From Terebella lapidaria (lineage: Eukaryota; Annelida; Polychaeta; Terebellida; Terebellidae), in the NCBI GenBank assembly GCA_949152475.1, contig OX424567.1:30529402-30593401 (forward strand): a DNA stretch of 64,000 bases. The letters run 5' to 3'. Both the position numbers and the translations under genes were made by a program. A model generated the notes under the pieces. That model was not told the origin of the DNA and made no database searches. It saw only the letters and a list, made by a program, of their open reading frames with translations. Below, piece by piece: positions 3,299-63,789 of the stretch (the stretch's first letter is position 1; every line of letters starts with the position of its first letter).

Positions 3299-3924
3299 TG
3301 AGGTGATAATTATAAACGGGGTGGAAATTATAAACGCGGTGAATATTGTGAGGTGATAATTATAGATGGGGTGGATATTTTGAACTCGGTGAATATTGTG
3401 AGGTGATAATTATAGATGGGGTGGATATTATAAACTCGGTGAATATTGTGAGGTGATAATTATAGATGGGGTGGATATTTTGAACTCGGTGAATATTGTG
3501 AGGTGATAATTATAGATGGGGTGGAAATTATGAACGCGGTGCAAATTATGAGGTGATAATTATAGATGGGGTGGATATTATGAACTCGGTGAATATTGTG
3601 AGGTGATAAATATAGATGGGGTGGAAATTATGAACGCGGTGATAATTCTGAGGTGATAATTATAGATGGGGTGGATATTTTAAACTCGGTGAATATTGTG
3701 AGGTGATAATTATAGACGGGGTGGAAATTATGAATGCGGTGATAATTCTGAGGTGGTAATTATAGATGGGGTGGATATTATAAACTCGGTGAATATTGTG
3801 AGGTGATAATTATAGATGGGGTGGAAATTATAAACGCGGTGAATATTGTGAGGTGATAATTATAGATGGGGTGGAAATTATAAACACGGTGAATATTGTG
3901 AGGTGATAATTATAGACGGGGTGA
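3299..3924 (-). repeat. Degenerate tandem array, right arm
   Basis: About 15 units of the form GAGGTGATAATTATAGATGG followed by GGTGGA(A/T)ATT and (A/T)GAAC.CGGTGAATATTGT. This is the inverted counterpart of 2331-2627 but longer and more regular, so it has expanded independently since the arms formed. Alternating near-identical unit types (AACTCGG versus AACGCGG) suggest that pairs of units were amplified together. Confidence 0.85.
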
Positions 3925-3999
3925 GAAATGCAGGAATATAATTGGCGGTAAGGAGCCACCGTATAAATAACACTCGCAGCACAAAGTGGTCAAAGTCTT

Positions 4000-5815
4000 C
4001 GAGTGTTTTATTCGTTTATGATCAAGATATTGATCAAAGACGTTATCGTTGTGACTACGTGAACGCAAACACTTGACTACGTGAAAGTTGAGCGTGTGTT
4101 TTTTGGTGACTACATGAACGCTTTGAATCGAATGTATTTATGTATGGTAGTGCATTCAAAAGTCAATGAAGAGTAATTGTATTCCTCAAAATTATCTATT
4201 TCAGGTATATGCAACTCACGATGCTGAATTAGAGAGCACGCACTGTCATATAAAGTGAATCAGGGTATCAAGTTATTTTGTAACATTCAATAGGCTTTCA
4301 ATATCTTTCTACATGGTTCTCTCTCTCGAAACTGATGAATTTTGTGACAAATTTCCAGGAATGTGTTTTGTGTCCGGAATACTTGTTGGGCCAGTTGAAA
4401 TAACTATTGTAATAATATTGTTTATAATGCCGTAATTACAAAACAAATACCAAATAAGAGGACCAGAAACCCCAACAACAACACACTGTACTCCAACAGT
4501 ACACAGTACTATGAGGATATTATCCCCGTCTTCACCGGGATGAGAATGGCTTAGTGTAACACACGGAGGCGAAAAGAAAAGGAGCTCAAACTACCGTTAG
4601 TGTGAGCACGGAAATGCACATGATTCCACAACGGAACGAAAAGTCAACAGATATTAAAACCGACAACGTAGCTCAATGTCCGTGCGGGTAGAAATGTATG
4701 AGATAAATATATTCTGAATTGGGCTAAGATTCCCCGTGCTTCAAGGAGGGAATGGATATATTGTCGTCATTGACTGTGGTACCGTCGGCTCATTCAATCA
4801 CGATGTTGAACTGCCATAACTGACCCACGGAATATAACGTATTGAAATAAATACGCAGATCTTCCTTGGGATATGAATTGGTACCAACTTCTCTATGTTT
4901 CTCTTTCTTGCACTTATAAATATTGTGTTGATATGATTCGCAAGTTTCTGCAAAATGAAACGAATTGAAATTACAAAGAAATTTGATTTACAAGAAATTT
5001 GGTTTCCATGGAATGCTCTGGTAGATTTGGGGGAGGGGGAGGAGTGCTAGAAGTAGTGAAATCACCCCTCCTCATGTTGCAATTGTTGTTGCGCCCTTGG
5101 AGCATGGAATATTAAATCTAAGTTGTATTTTGCACAGGGCTATGTGATAACTTTCTGTTTATTCTCTTATCACAAAATCCATGCGAGGGCTAATATAGAC
5201 ACGAGGACGAGATCTAGTAGTTGACCCGCGAAAGGTGTTCTATCATCTTCAGATTTCCAAACCATTATTAGTTTGACATTGGCATTCGAGAACAGAATCC
5301 GGATCAAAACTCAAAAATTGAAACCCATTCAAATAGTGGAACTATATATAACGGTACTGTCGCATTTCTCTGTTGCTAATGCACATACACAATGTACTTA
5401 TCGCGGAGGCCTCGGTTTACTATGGCCCAGCCCCGATGGCCAACGCTCAGTTGTTTGATAAATACAATGTATACATACAAAATGGGTTTAATAGTGTCAT
5501 TGTAATATTTCGTGTTGTTGGACCGTATGTATCTCAGGCAATACTGTAATGAAGATTTTCAATAAATAGATAAGTAAGTCAAATTAATAAATTAATAGAT
5601 CCCCCATTTTTGCATGTCATACAATTTGTAGATGTTTGTAGAGCTGTAGGTCGATACAGGTGTGAATTCTTGTGAAAAATTATTGTGTTGTTTAAACCCT
5701 TTGCCGATAATACAATCCTTTTGTAGTTCATTCGTCATTTCTGCGCATTTTTATTTTTGAATTACTTCAGTTTCAGACCGAGATACGATAAACCGTATAC
5801 ATTTCATACAAAACA
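4000..5815. other. Interior of the outer element, no gene seen
   Basis: No transposase-like frame occurs on either strand. There is a G-rich patch near 5030-5040, and subterminal GACTACGTGAACGC-type words lie at 4052-4115. The open frame at 5273-5458 is short and has no recognisable domain. Confidence 0.5.
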
Positions 5816-15078: not shown

Positions 15079-16095
15079 TCAGAAAGGGTTAATGAGCAGC
15101 ACGTGCGCGTGAATTGTCCCCGGAAGTTTCAGTCGAGTAGTGCCGTACAATATATTACCACATCTGTAGAGATGTGTACGAACCACGCGTACACACAAGT
15201 CCTTGAGCGGTACGACTTCGCTGAGGTATGAATCCATCCACTCGGGTTCGGTGAGCGCCTTCCCATAGCGACGTAATGACTCGGTAGGCTGCAGCCCATT
15301 ACGTATTAGAAACACGTAGAGATAACGTGTCAATTCAAGTGATTCCTTGCCGATTGTTCGCAGTTCGTTTTCAATGGCTGCCATTTGTTTTTTATGTTCT
15401 TTCTCTGGGATGGAACTATTCGCTAGGGGGCGGCACACTGTACCTTGTACGACCATCTTAAACAGTTGCTTATAACATTCCTTCGGGCTCTTCAGCGGCG
15501 TGTAAATCACCTGGGCTAGGGGATCACTCCAGTAGCCCAAGTTCTCAAGAAGCGGCCCACAATTGGCCCCAGCTAAGAGCAAACCCTGCAAGATCTGTGG
15601 GTTGGACACGTCTATAGCGAGGCGTACAGAACGTGCAGTGACTGCTGCTCCAAAGGAAAGCAGAGCACGTACGGAATCCAGTCTCTGGAACGTAATGGCG
15701 TAGTCGATTGGCGGGCGGTCGCACTTCTCATTCCCGCGACTGTTGATGTCCGCGCCTGCCGCCAGGAGCGCCCTGATAGTCTCCTCCGGATCCGTTTCGT
15801 CGATGGTCCGGAAGTGAGCCAAATGCAGCGGAGTGCATCCGTTTTTCTTGTGGAAGCGATGAGGGCTTCCGCCATATTGTAAAAGTAACTTGACACATCG
15901 TGTGTAGCCCAGCCACGCGGCCTGATGCAGTAGGAACTTCTGGTTGATTTCGTCAGATCCAGCATGGCTTTCCTGTAGGAGAGTTTCTAGTCGCGATAGA
16001 CAGTTGTCCTTAACAGCCTCCTCCAAGGCACGCAGCAGAGCATCATGCGCGCGCGTTCCTACGCAACCGGAGAGTGTCATCGCGTCACGTGGCAT
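15079..16095 (-). CDS. Ankyrin repeat and SOCS box (ASB-type) protein
   Basis: An uninterrupted 338-aa frame. The ATG at 16095 is chosen because upstream, in the same frame, only GTG and then a TGA occur. Ankyrin repeats cover about 53-180: LLHQAAWLGYTRCVKLLLQY, then GCTPLHLAH with ALLAAGADIN, then PPIDYAI with RALLSFGAAV, and a weaker fourth with LLLAGANC. The C-terminus (about 296-335) is a SOCS box: BC-box PLKDLCVRVVRTHL followed by a Cul5-box-like LKLPGTI. ASB proteins bridge a substrate, bound by the ankyrin stack, to Elongin B/C and Cullin-5, forming a ubiquitin ligase; the substrate here is unknown. Some 115 residues between the ankyrin stack and SOCS box match nothing I recognise. The whole CDS is one exon; an acceptor-like TTTACTACAG near 16172 hints at a spliced leader exon. 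Confidence 0.87.
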   Translation of the reverse strand: MPRDAMTLSGCVGTRAHDALLRALEEAVKDNCLSRLETLLQESHAGSDEINQKFLLHQAAWLGYTRCVKLLLQYGGSPHRFHKKNGCTPLHLAHFRTIDETDPEETIRALLAAGADINSRGNEKCDRPPIDYAITFQRLDSVRALLSFGAAVTARSVRLAIDVSNPQILQGLLLAGANCGPLLENLGYWSDPLAQVIYTPLKSPKECYKQLFKMVVQGTVCRPLANSSIPEKEHKKQMAAIENELRTIGKESLELTRYLYVFLIRNGLQPTESLRRYGKALTEPEWMDSYLSEVVPLKDLCVRVVRTHLYRCGNILYGTTRLKLPGTIHAHVLLINPF

Positions 16096-16179
16096 ACTCT
16101 CAAATCGTGCAATAATCACAATATTTCACTTTAGTGGAACCTCGCCAGCAACAACTGTGCAGGGAACATCTGTAGTAAA

Positions 16180-27500: not shown

Positions 27501-30500
27501 GATATAACTTTGTAAGTGAAATGCCCGAGTGATACGTGATAATCTATATACTATTACAATGTCCAGTGGCCTATGCACTACCTGTAGATCCATATGATGA
27601 ATGCAATAATTGCACTGAGCAGGAGGACCGACACTAGAACAGCGACCCCTATCACCCAGTCTGCAGAAGAAATGTAATATTTAGAGAATATTCTATCAAT
27701 CGGAAAGTACATAAAATGTGGCGATCGTTGATTTGATTGATGTGACTCGGGGCCATATCACACTTTTGTTACTTACCCTGTCTGCAGACTCCGGGGCCAT
27801 ATCACACTTTCGTTACTTACCATGTCTGCAGATCCCGGGCCACGCATACGCTTACGTTACTTACCGTGTCTGTAGACCCCCGGGCCATATCACAGTTTTG
27901 TTACTTACCCTGTCTGCAGACTCCCTTCTCACAGACGTATCTATCACTGGGTGGTGACGACAGACCCCCGGGCCATATCACGCTTTTGTTACTGATCACC
28001 AGCCGAGCACTACTAGGGGTGAAACAAGAATATTAACGGCTTTGGGGGCACCAATGCATCCATACAATTTGACAAATGATACGTAGCCAAGCGAGGAACA
28101 AAAAATAAATTGAATCAGAAATACCGACGTTTATAACAAACACTGAATTACAATGTAACAATATATAAAGGATGACTGGTTTGGAGTGGAACGTGGCGAA
28201 ATTTTCCCCCGAGGAGTAAATATTGCCCGAAGCGAAGCCGAGGGTAACATTTGCTTCGAGGGGGAACATTTCGCCATGTTCCCCGACACACCAGTCACCA
28301 TTTATTTTATATACCGAATGTCACTGGTGCTATTGTGATAAGCCTTTGCATAAGCCATTGTTAAAGTCGGCAATCTTCGGAAGTCTTCGATCGCAGCGGT
28401 AAATATTTTTTGGCAATTTTTCATGGCAAGACAATGTTCCCCGCTGCTAGGGACGTTGTTACGTTTGACGTGGAACATGCGTTTTGTTTCACGGCTGATT
28501 AACCAATCAGTGGCGAGGATTATAAACATGAGGTGTAATAACCATCAATGAGTCACGTTCTTTGCAGACATATTGCGACAATATTTTTATACCTCTCGAT
28601 GTACTCCAAGAGAACCTCAAAGCTCCCATTCTGCAGGATTCTCAGAGAGAAATCCACGACCGCGTTCCCAGATTCATCAATAGCCCGGTCACAACACAGC
28701 TCGGGTGCTGGGGGATAACATATGTGAAAAAGAGCTGTATTTTCACACAAACATCATGAAACATGTATTACAGTACATGTAAGTAAATATTGTTACATGT
28801 GTCATCATAACTTTGGTACAGTTGTGTGGGTTTTTCCCCCAAAACTTATGGAACGAATACATTTACATGTATCTTACATGTGGACGGTATTTTTTTCTTT
28901 TTTTCTCAGAAAATATCTCGTAATTCCTTTTCGAAAGTTGTCAAACCACACATACATTCCAGCGTTCTGTTGAGGAGTTGAGCCACGACGTTCCTGCCGT
29001 TGATGCGGCTCTGCCCATGTGAGACCAGGCTGTCCACAGCGAGGCCGTACAGCACTATGGCGTCGTGCATTAGGTACGGCGTCACCGTACGCTGTAACGT
29101 CATAGGGGTGAGGTCATGAGCCGAAATAGTCATTTATGTAATTGAAAACAGAATTGGAACAGTTATCCGGAGTTATTTTACAGACAGTCGCTGGAGTGCT
29201 CTCAGAATAAAGTCGTAATCAGGAAGTGGATTTGTAAATTATAAGGTTCTGATTTTACAGTTATATAACGCTAAAGGCGGTTACACACCGAAGCCGCGCG
29301 ACCGTTTTACGGAACCGTTTTGTGCTTCCGTTTTTTAAGGCCGCGCAAGCTATGATAGAACTCGGCTTTCCAAAGGGGAATGTGTACACAGGTTCCGTTC
29401 TAGCGCTCCGCTTTCTAAAAAATAGAACAGTGTTCTAATTTTTACGCCTTACGTCCGAAACGCCAGCGCATGATATGAGTGAAAAATGCATTTAGAGGTT
29501 GAAATATCGCTATATGTTCCATAAATTGTCCACATATATGCAGAGACAACTGCCTGGTCTCTCCGCCGGATTACGGGTAGTTTATTGTGACCTTTGTGGA
29601 CTGCAACTGCATGCACGATGCCAAGCAAAGGTACGGTAATGACCAAATTATTTAGTCTTGGTAATATTAATTGTTGCTCTTTTGTATATGTCATGTATAA
29701 ATAAAGTTGTGTTTAGGGTTTCCCACAGCTATTGCTGAATCCTATGTAATTTGCTAATAATTGCATTATTATTCTGGAATACAATATGACAGCCAAAAGT
29801 GGTCATTCAGCCATCTTGGATCTTATTTTTGTGGAAAAACAGTGCTTTTTCACAAATGAAGGCTATCTTGGCGTCTCATTTTTTTGTACATGGACATACA
29901 TCATGCATAGACAGACGGTAACACGTACTTCACGGTTGCAAATAGGCCTATGTAGGTATATATTTTGTGGTACATGTAAACAATAACAAACAATGTAAAA
30001 ATCACATTAAACTTTGTCAAACTGCTCTTTTGAAATGCGAAAATAGTTCTGGTATTTGTCTGGGTATTCTTCCAGTTCCCGTACCAGCCTATATTCACCA
30101 AGGTGGTTTAGTGGAGGGATGCAAAGGATTTATCAGGATGCACAGAGCCCAAAATTTGTGTCTTCTTTTAACTCTATTGGCCTTCTCATCATCCTTTTTT
30201 TTATCAAGTATTTCTTTAAATAGTCTATGACCGCGTGTTGAAATTGCAGGTGGAGGGTGTACATAATTTTTACGGACATGACTTAAGTGCTAAAAACAAA
30301 CGTCATTACTCGGTGTGAACAGAAAACACGGTACCGTTCCTAAATTGACATGGCCGTCAAGAAACGTTGACGTCGCCGTAAACGGTCGCGCGGCTTCGGT
30401 GTGTAACCGCCTTAATGCTAACGTACGGAATATACTTGGATGATGCTAAAGCTATCGTTCTATAACTTGGCACACTTCAACTGGGAGTCGAACGGCAATT

Positions 30501-44029: not shown

Positions 44030-47000
44030 TGTGTCCAAGAACACGACGGACCTCATCTTCTGTGGATCTTCTCTGGATGGATAGCCTATGTTCAGAATGA
44101 TTACTGTTGATTCAGGAGAACCCATCTCCACAGCGTCGCTAGCTTGATGCCGCAGCCACACTACCATAGCTGTGAAAAAAAACTCCCTGAAGCTGCTGAA
44201 AATGTTCATGCATGGGTTTAGAAAACTCGATTATGTCGAGGTAAATGAAAGCAATATGGCACGGGAGAGGCGCCATAGGCCTGTTGCCAATGGGGAGCAA
44301 AATAACACAGCGCACACATAGTCTCAGTATAAAAGTTATGCAGATGAACTGGCACAATTAAATTACCACTAGCTTGAGGACGAGAACTTGATCTAAACAC
44401 ACAAATTCATACCATCACAGGCATTGGAGACGAACGACGCCGTGTCAAACTCAAATATACATGTATGTACACAGGTTTCGTTGTTCTGGGAGCCATGGCT
44501 GGAATCTGCAGTCCAAGAAGATGCATTGATATTACGGGTGGAGGTATCACTGGGCATTCAAAGGGCTAATCCAAAGCATTCTTTCATGTGAACTGATAAG
44601 ACTGCGTATCTAGACAAATGTGTATCCACACTGGTTCCGAATCCAGTAAGCCAGGGCCTACGGTATCTGACATTTGGTGAAAAAGTACGGTTATATGCCA
44701 GATGGAAACAAATAAAATTTAAATTGATCCGACCATCCTAAACGAAGTTATCGCCAAAAATCATATGAAGTTTTGGTGTTGAACTTGAGTTTAATTCACC
44801 TCAACCTGTTAAGATGTGACAACAAGAAGTGTCCATCATATTAATAACATATAAGTCTATTTATTTCGGAACTGATCTGTATATGCACTGTATCACAACA
44901 ATCTAATGTATGAATGTTCTGTACCCTACTACATGTATAGCAACATCTAGGCCTATGGACTACAGTCGAACTCTATGGAGGTCTACATGTCCGGGGCTCA
45001 GCGGGCGTTCGGTGTAATATGGGGCAGGTGTGATCCATATCCCGGACGCAGTGTCTTCTTTGATGTGACTAATGTGACTAATGTATTCGCTTTTGTACAA
45101 ACGAGGACTTTCTACTACATACACAAGATTGGGACCTGTAAAGAAACCACTTCTGTGTCTTATACGAGAACTTCTTTGTTTTGTATGAAAAGCTTGCCCT
45201 ATCAAGAGGGGGCATTATATGGACTGCATTGGGAGGGTTAGGGTGGGGATACATATGGGATTATGTATTAGCCAACTATTATTAGTTATTGATATGCACT
45301 GTGCATATTAATTAACAAGCCTTTGTGTCATGGAAATTTGGCCGTCACCGGTCGAAGTTTCCAGTAATTTCGGCCATAGAATTAGCTCTCAATTTCCATT
45401 GATTATGTTCATTATACATGTATATACATGTATCACATACCACTCTATAACTTGCAAGTATGTCAGGTTCTATATCAATGATATATAAAGATGCATTCTA
45501 GTTATCGTTACCCTGAGCATAGCTAGTTAATATATCCACTGGTCAAAATACTCGTCTCATTTCCTATTTGCTTTTTCACACATGCAAGTTTTAAAAAAAG
45601 CCGATGCGATATTTTTGTTTGCCAACTTGGTATTTCGGTGCTGTGAGTGTGCGGTAATGTATACATGTACTAGTATGTTGAAGTCCTACTTTGGAATGAA
45701 TGGACCTCACAAACGGCTGCAGTTTTTCTTTGCATCGTCCGGTCTAATTAGTTTTAATTGAACACATGCTTCATATTTTGCATGTTTAATAATTCATGAT
45801 TGTTTGAAAAATGACAATTAGTCAGCTTGGACTATGAAGTTGTCAAATACTGTGGTTCAACAAGAACTTATCTGTTATCCGTCTTTTATATGTGAAACGT
45901 ACGTACGCCCCTACACATGAAAACTTAAATATTACTTTCTTTTAACGATATGGTTTGGAGGCTTCTGTCGGCGTAACCCGTGGATAGATTCAGTTGAAAT
46001 AAACTCTGATTTTACAACACAATGACAGAACACGATACATTACAACTCCAGCAAACGGTGTTGTGCTTCTCACAATATTGAAATCTATTTGAGTGTATAC
46101 TTACATGTACCAATATACATTTCAAATTCTTGTTTCACCGTGATTATGCCGGTACTAGTAATGTAATGTATTAATAACAGTTTTCAATTGGTTATCACCA
46201 AATTGCACTTGTTGATATGATATTAATTTAAAGTGAAAGAGAACCGTACGATTTTTACGCGATCGCGAAACGTCCAGATTTAGAAGAATTTCGGAAAGCA
46301 GAACATTTCTTCACGATTCATGGTCTAATTGAATCGTTAATTATCCGGTGCACGATTCAATCTCATTCCGGCATATTTGCAACCCGTGTTGTATCGTGTT
46401 TGGTGTTTATCTGACAGATATTGACTAGAAAGAGGGATACAGCGGGTTCCTTATGCTAATGGTTTGGCAGTACGTATATTTGATTATGTTCATAGCATAT
46501 ATATCAAGGGCGTTGTGTTTGGCACAGTAACTGCAAATCGTGTAACAAGCAATCTGATCCGTATGTTACAAGCAGTGTATAGGAGTAAGGGTCAAGTAAA
46601 AATAAGAATTGAGGTAACAAATCTTCGTGTTGAGTCATTGTTCTAACATGTGACTCAATGTGTACTGTTTTTTTAATTGATCGTTTTACATTTATCACCA
46701 ATTTGTATCTGGCTCCGGAGTCCGGATTGGTGTCGTTTATTTATATAACCAGGGACGTGATATTCATACACTGATGCAAGCAAATATTGTTTCGAATGGT
46801 GCAAATACATAAATATGCATATAAAGATATAACAGAAAACGGTGCAAAACATTTATTTCAGATATCATTTGATATGTTATCGTTACGAAGGTTGGTTATG
46901 CCGGATTGCAATGAACAACATCATAGTTATATTTTTCATTCCTATAATACGACTGTTATATAACATTGCGGAATATAATATTGATTATATAATATTGCGG

Positions 47001-63210: not shown

Positions 63211-63711
63211 TGCCATTATGTCCTGTGACCTTGAAAATGAGGTTAAGGTCAAATTCAAGGTCACGATAATATTCAGAATATATCATTTCCTAGATGTTCA
63301 CAATCGATTCTTAAGCTGTAAAGTCTATAATGAGTGAAATATTAACCATTTTGTGCTTTGGACCTTGGAAATAAGGTCAGAAGCCAAATTCACGGTCACG
63401 AGAATATTCAGCATAATTTCCTATATGTCCACAACTGATTCCTAAGCTGTAAAATCGACAATAAGTGAGATGTTAGTCATTTTGTCCTGTGACTTCGAAA
63501 ATGTGGTCAAAGGTCAAATTAAAGGTCATGATAATAATCTGCATATATAGTTTCCCATATGTTCATAATTGATTCCTAAGCTGTAAAGTCGATAAGAAGC
63601 GAGACATCAGCCATTTTATCCTGTGACCTTGAAAAAAGGTCAAATGTCAAATTCAAGGTCATCAGAAAATACGGCAAATATCATTTCAAACATATCCACA
63701 ATTGATTCTTA
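63211..63711 (+). repeat. Four-copy tandem repeat of about 133 bp with AAGGTCA motifs
   Basis: The phrase CATTTTGTCCTGTGACCTTG or variants begins at about 63214, 63347, 63478 and 63612. Each unit then has AAGGTCAAATTCAAGGTCA, GATAATATTCAG..TATAT, TTCCTATATGTTCACAA and TGATTCCTAAGCTGTAAA. It lies in the intron after collagen exon 3. Confidence 0.9.
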
Positions 63712-63789
63712 ACACGGGGGACTATCCGTTCCGTATAGCATGGTTTACGGCGGTATGGTTCCGATTTAAGTGTATTTGCCGACAGTTAA

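Follow-up and report, generated by a model that had tools for sequence, protein, structure and literature searches.

In lancelets, tandem repeats known as mirages lie across exon–intron boundaries and are reported to leave regular splicing undisturbed; in the accessible parts of the two reports, genes that carry them include Adh3, globins and troponin C, and similar repeats occur in PGBD5 (PMC3087553, PMC3902484). The human ABCA7 gene has a VNTR in intron 18 that starts with the donor GT of exon 18, and the available excerpt of that study puts retention of one 25-bp unit, which causes a frameshift, at ~2% of transcripts (PMC5954066). No boundary repeats are described in the accessible part of PMC2206037.

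We analysed a 64-kb stretch of contig 14 from the annelid Terebella lapidaria, hereafter the window, and searched the genome to which it belongs (761.6 Mb, 438 contigs). One intron of a minus-strand receptor guanylate cyclase gene in this window opens with an array of 44-bp units. As in the lancelet mirages, so far as the excerpts describe them, the array is a minisatellite whose copies span an exon–intron boundary, and splice signals recur within the units, GTAAGTAAC opening four of four with the partial last unit included. Arrays of this kind also stand in several genes of the one genome: among nine other arrays, a partly hand-picked set, four copy the boundary and one more is borderline. 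Unlike the mirages in those excerpts, the array has an annelid host, although a lancelet host is where mirages were described and is not strictly defining, and each of its units fuses two separated parts of the exon. The lancelet mirages come with a reported splicing outcome, whereas the Terebella array is known from the sequence of one assembly. The array fits as a further case of the described mirage class. We consider it probable that it is a mirage, that is, a minisatellite of an exon–intron boundary, in which splicing at the first donor yields the receptor mRNA, the later donors are rarely used or their products decay, and the array is nearly neutral.

The ABCA7 repeat resembles this array in that it begins at an exon donor, and there the donor one unit on is used at a low level; it is a close functional precedent. 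It differs in its 25-bp units, its C-rich region and its 23.7 reference copies, and a copied exon tail is not described in the available excerpt. If our reading is correct, the boundary-spanning minisatellites of lancelets also arise in another phylum, and such repeats can seed new introns or isoforms. Spliceosome choice among near-identical donors is often studied in engineered minigenes; the genome would then offer an experiment of nature on how a donor is chosen. Natural rows of exon-derived donors, including one in the conserved EXOSC10 gene, would let junction reads settle that choice in vivo.

An array of donors behind the juxtamembrane exon

The gene encodes a ligand-binding domain (Pfam ANF_receptor, E 3.9e-28), a single helix and a cyclase domain (Pfam Guanylate_cyc, E 8.4e-6), and is thus a receptor guanylate cyclase. 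When four exons from the ectodomain to the helix were joined, the protein aligned with natriuretic peptide receptor 1 (NPR1; best E 4.1e-11), and the alignment covered the juxtamembrane exon and extended through the helix; the fragment made of the juxtamembrane and helix exons alone had no PDB or Pfam match. The features of the locus are given in Table 1. The juxtamembrane exon has a second possible start at 28009 because its acceptor reads TAGTAG. This NAGNAG-type acceptor (28010-28015, minus strand) would permit one additional Ser codon. Ankyrin repeats are encoded in a separate minus-strand open frame (15079-16125; Pfam Ank_2, E 2.8e-20), and no Rfam family was found in the window at gathering scores.

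Table 1 Features of the receptor guanylate cyclase locus (positions in the window)
Feature	Position	Strand	Evidence
Juxtamembrane exon, repeat template	27909..28012	minus	splice signals, frame, joined-protein NPR1 alignment
Exon middle, 44 nt, missing from units, flanked by GTCTG copies	27917..27960	minus	
Intron with the array, 248 nt	27661..27908	minus	
Repeat unit 1, begins with the true donor GTAAGTAAC	27865..27908	minus	
Repeat unit 2, begins with the second donor	27821..27864	minus	
Repeat unit 3, begins with the third donor	27777..27820	minus	
Partial repeat unit 4, from the fourth donor to GAGTC; TRF array end at 27750	27744..27776	minus	
In-frame stop TAA, past the true donor after Gly-Lys	27902..27904	minus	
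Transmembrane-helix exon, acceptor TTCTTCTGCAG/ACTGG	27582..27660	minus	splice signals, frame

TRF reported a tandem array at 27750-27925, the end of the exon included, with a period of 44, 4.0 copies and a score of 243. The array opens the intron that precedes the membrane-helix exon. Three of its units are complete; the fourth is partial, and no further donor follows it. On the minus strand, GTAAGTAAC starts at 27908, 27864, 27820 and 27776, and the motif is identical at all four donors; four donors in tandem, after 27909, 27865, 27821 and 27777, are what the initial annotation had reported. Its description of them as equivalent agrees with their strengths under a simple donor matrix, 6.10, 6.22, 5.78 and 6.10.

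Each unit consists of exon bases 27993-27961 fused to 27916-27906. The same annotation had proposed that the start of the exon is fused to its end plus the donor and that the middle was lost between two GTCTG copies, and base-by-base joining reproduced both points: the lost piece is exactly 44 nt long, and the joined exon is identical to units 1, 2 and 3 at 40/44, 32/44 and 40/44 positions and to the partial unit 4 at 24 of the 27 compared. Local scores of the whole exon against the full units were 28, 15 and 25, each reached by 0/300 shuffled exons, and when the terminal 60 nt of the exon alone were compared with unit 1, 1/500 shuffles reached the score. The exon is the ancestor of the units because it encodes a juxtamembrane stretch that can be aligned to NPR1. 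Among the 17 candidate exons of the gene, several with approximate ends, this is the only one with partial copies elsewhere in the window (E <= 0.01, self matches over more than 80% of an exon removed). On its minus strand the window has five copies of GTAAGTAA, four of them in the array, and on its plus strand one. Across the 761.6 Mb, the array DNA matched only its own locus and its own exon; these counts are lower bounds, and a missing match is no proof of rarity. A dispersed-repeat identity for the array was considered and found unsupported, no second genomic copy having been found in the searched sequence.

Short tandem arrays are frequently misassembled, and the copy number of this array could be wrong in the assembly. 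The full units, however, are identical to one another at only 29/44, 38/44 and 32/44 positions, and because they differ in this way they are not one copy multiplied by the assembler; we regard an assembly artefact as extremely improbable. The donor nonamer does not vary across the units, and units 1-3 agree at 28 of the 44 columns. The chance of such invariance is 0.0097 for nine columns named beforehand and 0.19 for a run of nine anywhere. On the latter figure, selection preserving the donors was rejected as an explanation; the invariance of the nonamer leaves slight room for selection on them.

Donor arrays elsewhere in the genome

The genome was scanned for three GGTAAGT motifs separated by gaps of 12-42 nt, a pattern whose hits overlap within arrays. 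The scan gave 1101 hits versus 743 for the backward control, and because these hits overlap, the difference does not establish that donor arrays are enriched. A stricter scan with CAGGTAAGT gave 76 hits, by eye four arrays, versus 43 in the control. Among the GGTAAGT matches listed, ~25 arrays were recognised by eye, and the CAGGTAAGT scan added two (on C7 and C11), which makes 27. Nine of these 27 were analysed at their 5' edge (L051, L062, L064, L069, L072, L073, L074, L077 and L078); L052, L053 and L079 stand outside the count, as the edge of the array was not reached.

The exon tail and donor are copied in 4/9 arrays, which lie behind exons of EXOSC10 and a mitochondrial carrier and at L064 and L072, and in each of the four 0/500 shuffled tails reached the score of the true tail against the unit. 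This fraction is not a rate, because the arrays were partly selected for donor-like units (L072, L073, L074 and the C3 array, L071 and then L077, were picked on that ground). The EXOSC10 exon, ...NKQYQLADWRIR (PDB E 2.8e-28), precedes an array of 40-bp units at C1:419187. The mitochondrial carrier exon is likewise followed by 40-bp units, which number ~28 as judged from the length of the array (C1:97745480); it matches its Pfam family with E 2e-15 when joined to the upstream exon and with E 0.00017 alone, slightly under the curated cut-off. Units are 28 bp long at L064 and 46 bp at L072. At L073, where a MORC2-like exon (PDB E 0.00032, no Pfam match) stands before 37-bp units, the tail copy is borderline, its score being reached by 26/500 shuffles.

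At L077 and L078, the array starts at the donor behind an open frame and the tail is not repeated (score reached by 310/500 and 321/500 shuffles). The first of these is the 5' edge of the C3 array (1739616-1742494), in which 31-bp donor-bearing units run for ~2.9 kb directly from the donor behind an open frame of coiled-coil-like character. The upstream tail is repeated at L062 (6/500 shuffles), yet an open frame is absent there, and L069 gave no clear call on a tail copy. L064 and L072 had no Pfam match and L077 and L078 no Pfam or PDB match; these four are therefore supported by their open frames and splice signals. We propose tentatively, with confidence a little short of even, that arrays of exon tail plus donor form a recurrent class of intron-start repeat in this genome, tolerated because the spliceosome nearly always takes the first of up to dozens of near-equal donors. 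Mirages would then be no peculiarity of lancelets.

Age of the intron and use of its donors

The array appears to be younger than its intron. In 5/5 intron-bearing paralogous loci, acceptor-like sites before the predicted helix exons fit phase 1 by eye, and three of these loci split an Asp codon, as does the juxtamembrane/helix boundary here. A sixth locus, L048, has no intron before the helix and reads through. At L050, which has two hydrophobic helix candidates, the one with a fitting acceptor ahead was chosen. A recent gain, in which the array itself created the intron by tandem duplication, would share with published cases a duplication over a splice boundary (PMC4974935), and in human paralogues an association between repeats at exon–intron boundaries and novel introns has been described (PMC2812944), both as given in the available excerpts. 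The exon end TCTGCAGACAGGGT (27907-27920) is also alike at 13/14 bases to the acceptor region of the helix exon, TCTGCAGACTGGGT (27654-27667). The intron here, in contrast to those cases, seems to precede its array: position and phase of the pre-helix intron agree by eye with the paralogous loci, and exon 7 of human NPR-A likewise holds the helix alone, according to the accessible part of PMC10665444. We therefore judge a recent intron gain highly improbable.

As to the order of copying, we infer that the exon start, the exon end and the 5' splice site were copied in tandem into the following, older intron. Slippage or template switching would likely have occurred at AGTAAC, which the start of the exon has in common with the flank of the donor, and at the exon's GTCTG copies. 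Regular receptor mRNA would come from the first donor, at the exon end. Any use of the later donors would be at a low level and would give transcripts with a premature stop, most of which would be degraded, and for these two reasons the array would be close to neutral. SRSF1 and hnRNP A1 shift the choice between competing donors to the intron-proximal and the intron-distal site, respectively, as described in the excerpt available of PMC5585400, and use of the first donor is therefore not a given.

Reading past the true donor gives Gly-Lys and a stop, in agreement with the initial annotation, and any later donor or retention of the intron leads to the same read-through, ...VCRQGK and stop, just before the helix exon. 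An mRNA with a stop ahead of downstream exon junctions is expected to be a target of decay. Because this stop precedes further exon junctions, decay of the later-donor mRNA is expected.

The initial annotation had raised the idea of a soluble ectodomain. In a regulated switch of this sort, a secreted ligand-binding ectodomain ending in ...VCRQGK would result from later donors or from retention of the intron and could act as a decoy receptor. The common stop right before the helix exon and the equal strength of the four donors on the simple matrix are consistent with such a switch. Control of this receptor class through isoforms is plausible, because less cGMP is produced when inactive splice isoforms of NPR-A are expressed together with the normal receptor, as the accessible part of PMC10665444 reports. 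Against it, eight poly(A)-signal variants were sought in the 248-nt intron and none was present, decay of the message is expected, and retention yields the stop even without the array. The EXOSC10 and mitochondrial carrier arrays, moreover, are similar to this one and lie behind exons of conserved, unrelated genes with no such use. The soluble ectodomain is thus unsupported other than by the stop codon and is the weaker reading; we consider a regulated switch very unlikely.

The array might instead control dosage, diverting a share of the pre-mRNA to later donors and hence to decay, so that less receptor is made and the copy number sets its level. The 44-nt unit is not a multiple of 3. In ABCA7, one unit is retained at the low level given above and a longer VNTR correlates with lower expression; unit retention, however, was constant across VNTR length and it was skipping of exon 19 that varied, all as stated in the available excerpt (PMC5954066). 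The Terebella array, besides, has only four donors. Dosage control is in our view unlikely, and the mirage reading, with a nearly neutral array, is the one we prefer. Pairing over 10 nt is possible between the end of the exon and the acceptor that follows. The exon–intron–exon piece showed no special fold (z +0.81, 85/100 shuffles as good), and a pairing-based switch was rejected, as folding was no better than in shuffles.

Paralogous receptors and the host genome

The ligand-binding family PF01094 gave 98 exon-level matches genome-wide. A 1233-aa open frame at C16:26035318 matches both PF01094 and a kinase-like domain, and the receptor it encodes is apparently intronless because both domains lie in a single open frame.

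The mitochondrial contig, translated and read by eye, has the order nad3-nad2-cox1-cox2-atp8-cox3, in which the genes besides cox1 are putatively named; we take this to be the annelid order. Eryth_link_C (PF16915), an erythrocruorin-linker family that is presumably of annelids, gave 7 matches over the cut-off. No GFP match was found in the genome, which does not show absence. On another small contig, C417, a further stretch resembling cox1 (44633-46450) has TGA codons in frame and represents a nuclear copy or a second organism.

The array that stands before the helix exon of the paralogue L047 was considered as a related repeat and rejected; it is an unrelated 129-bp repeat. A 134-bp tandem repeat in the window (63212-63712) resembles by eye this L047 repeat (3629-4016), and the two probably belong to a dispersed tandem repeat family.
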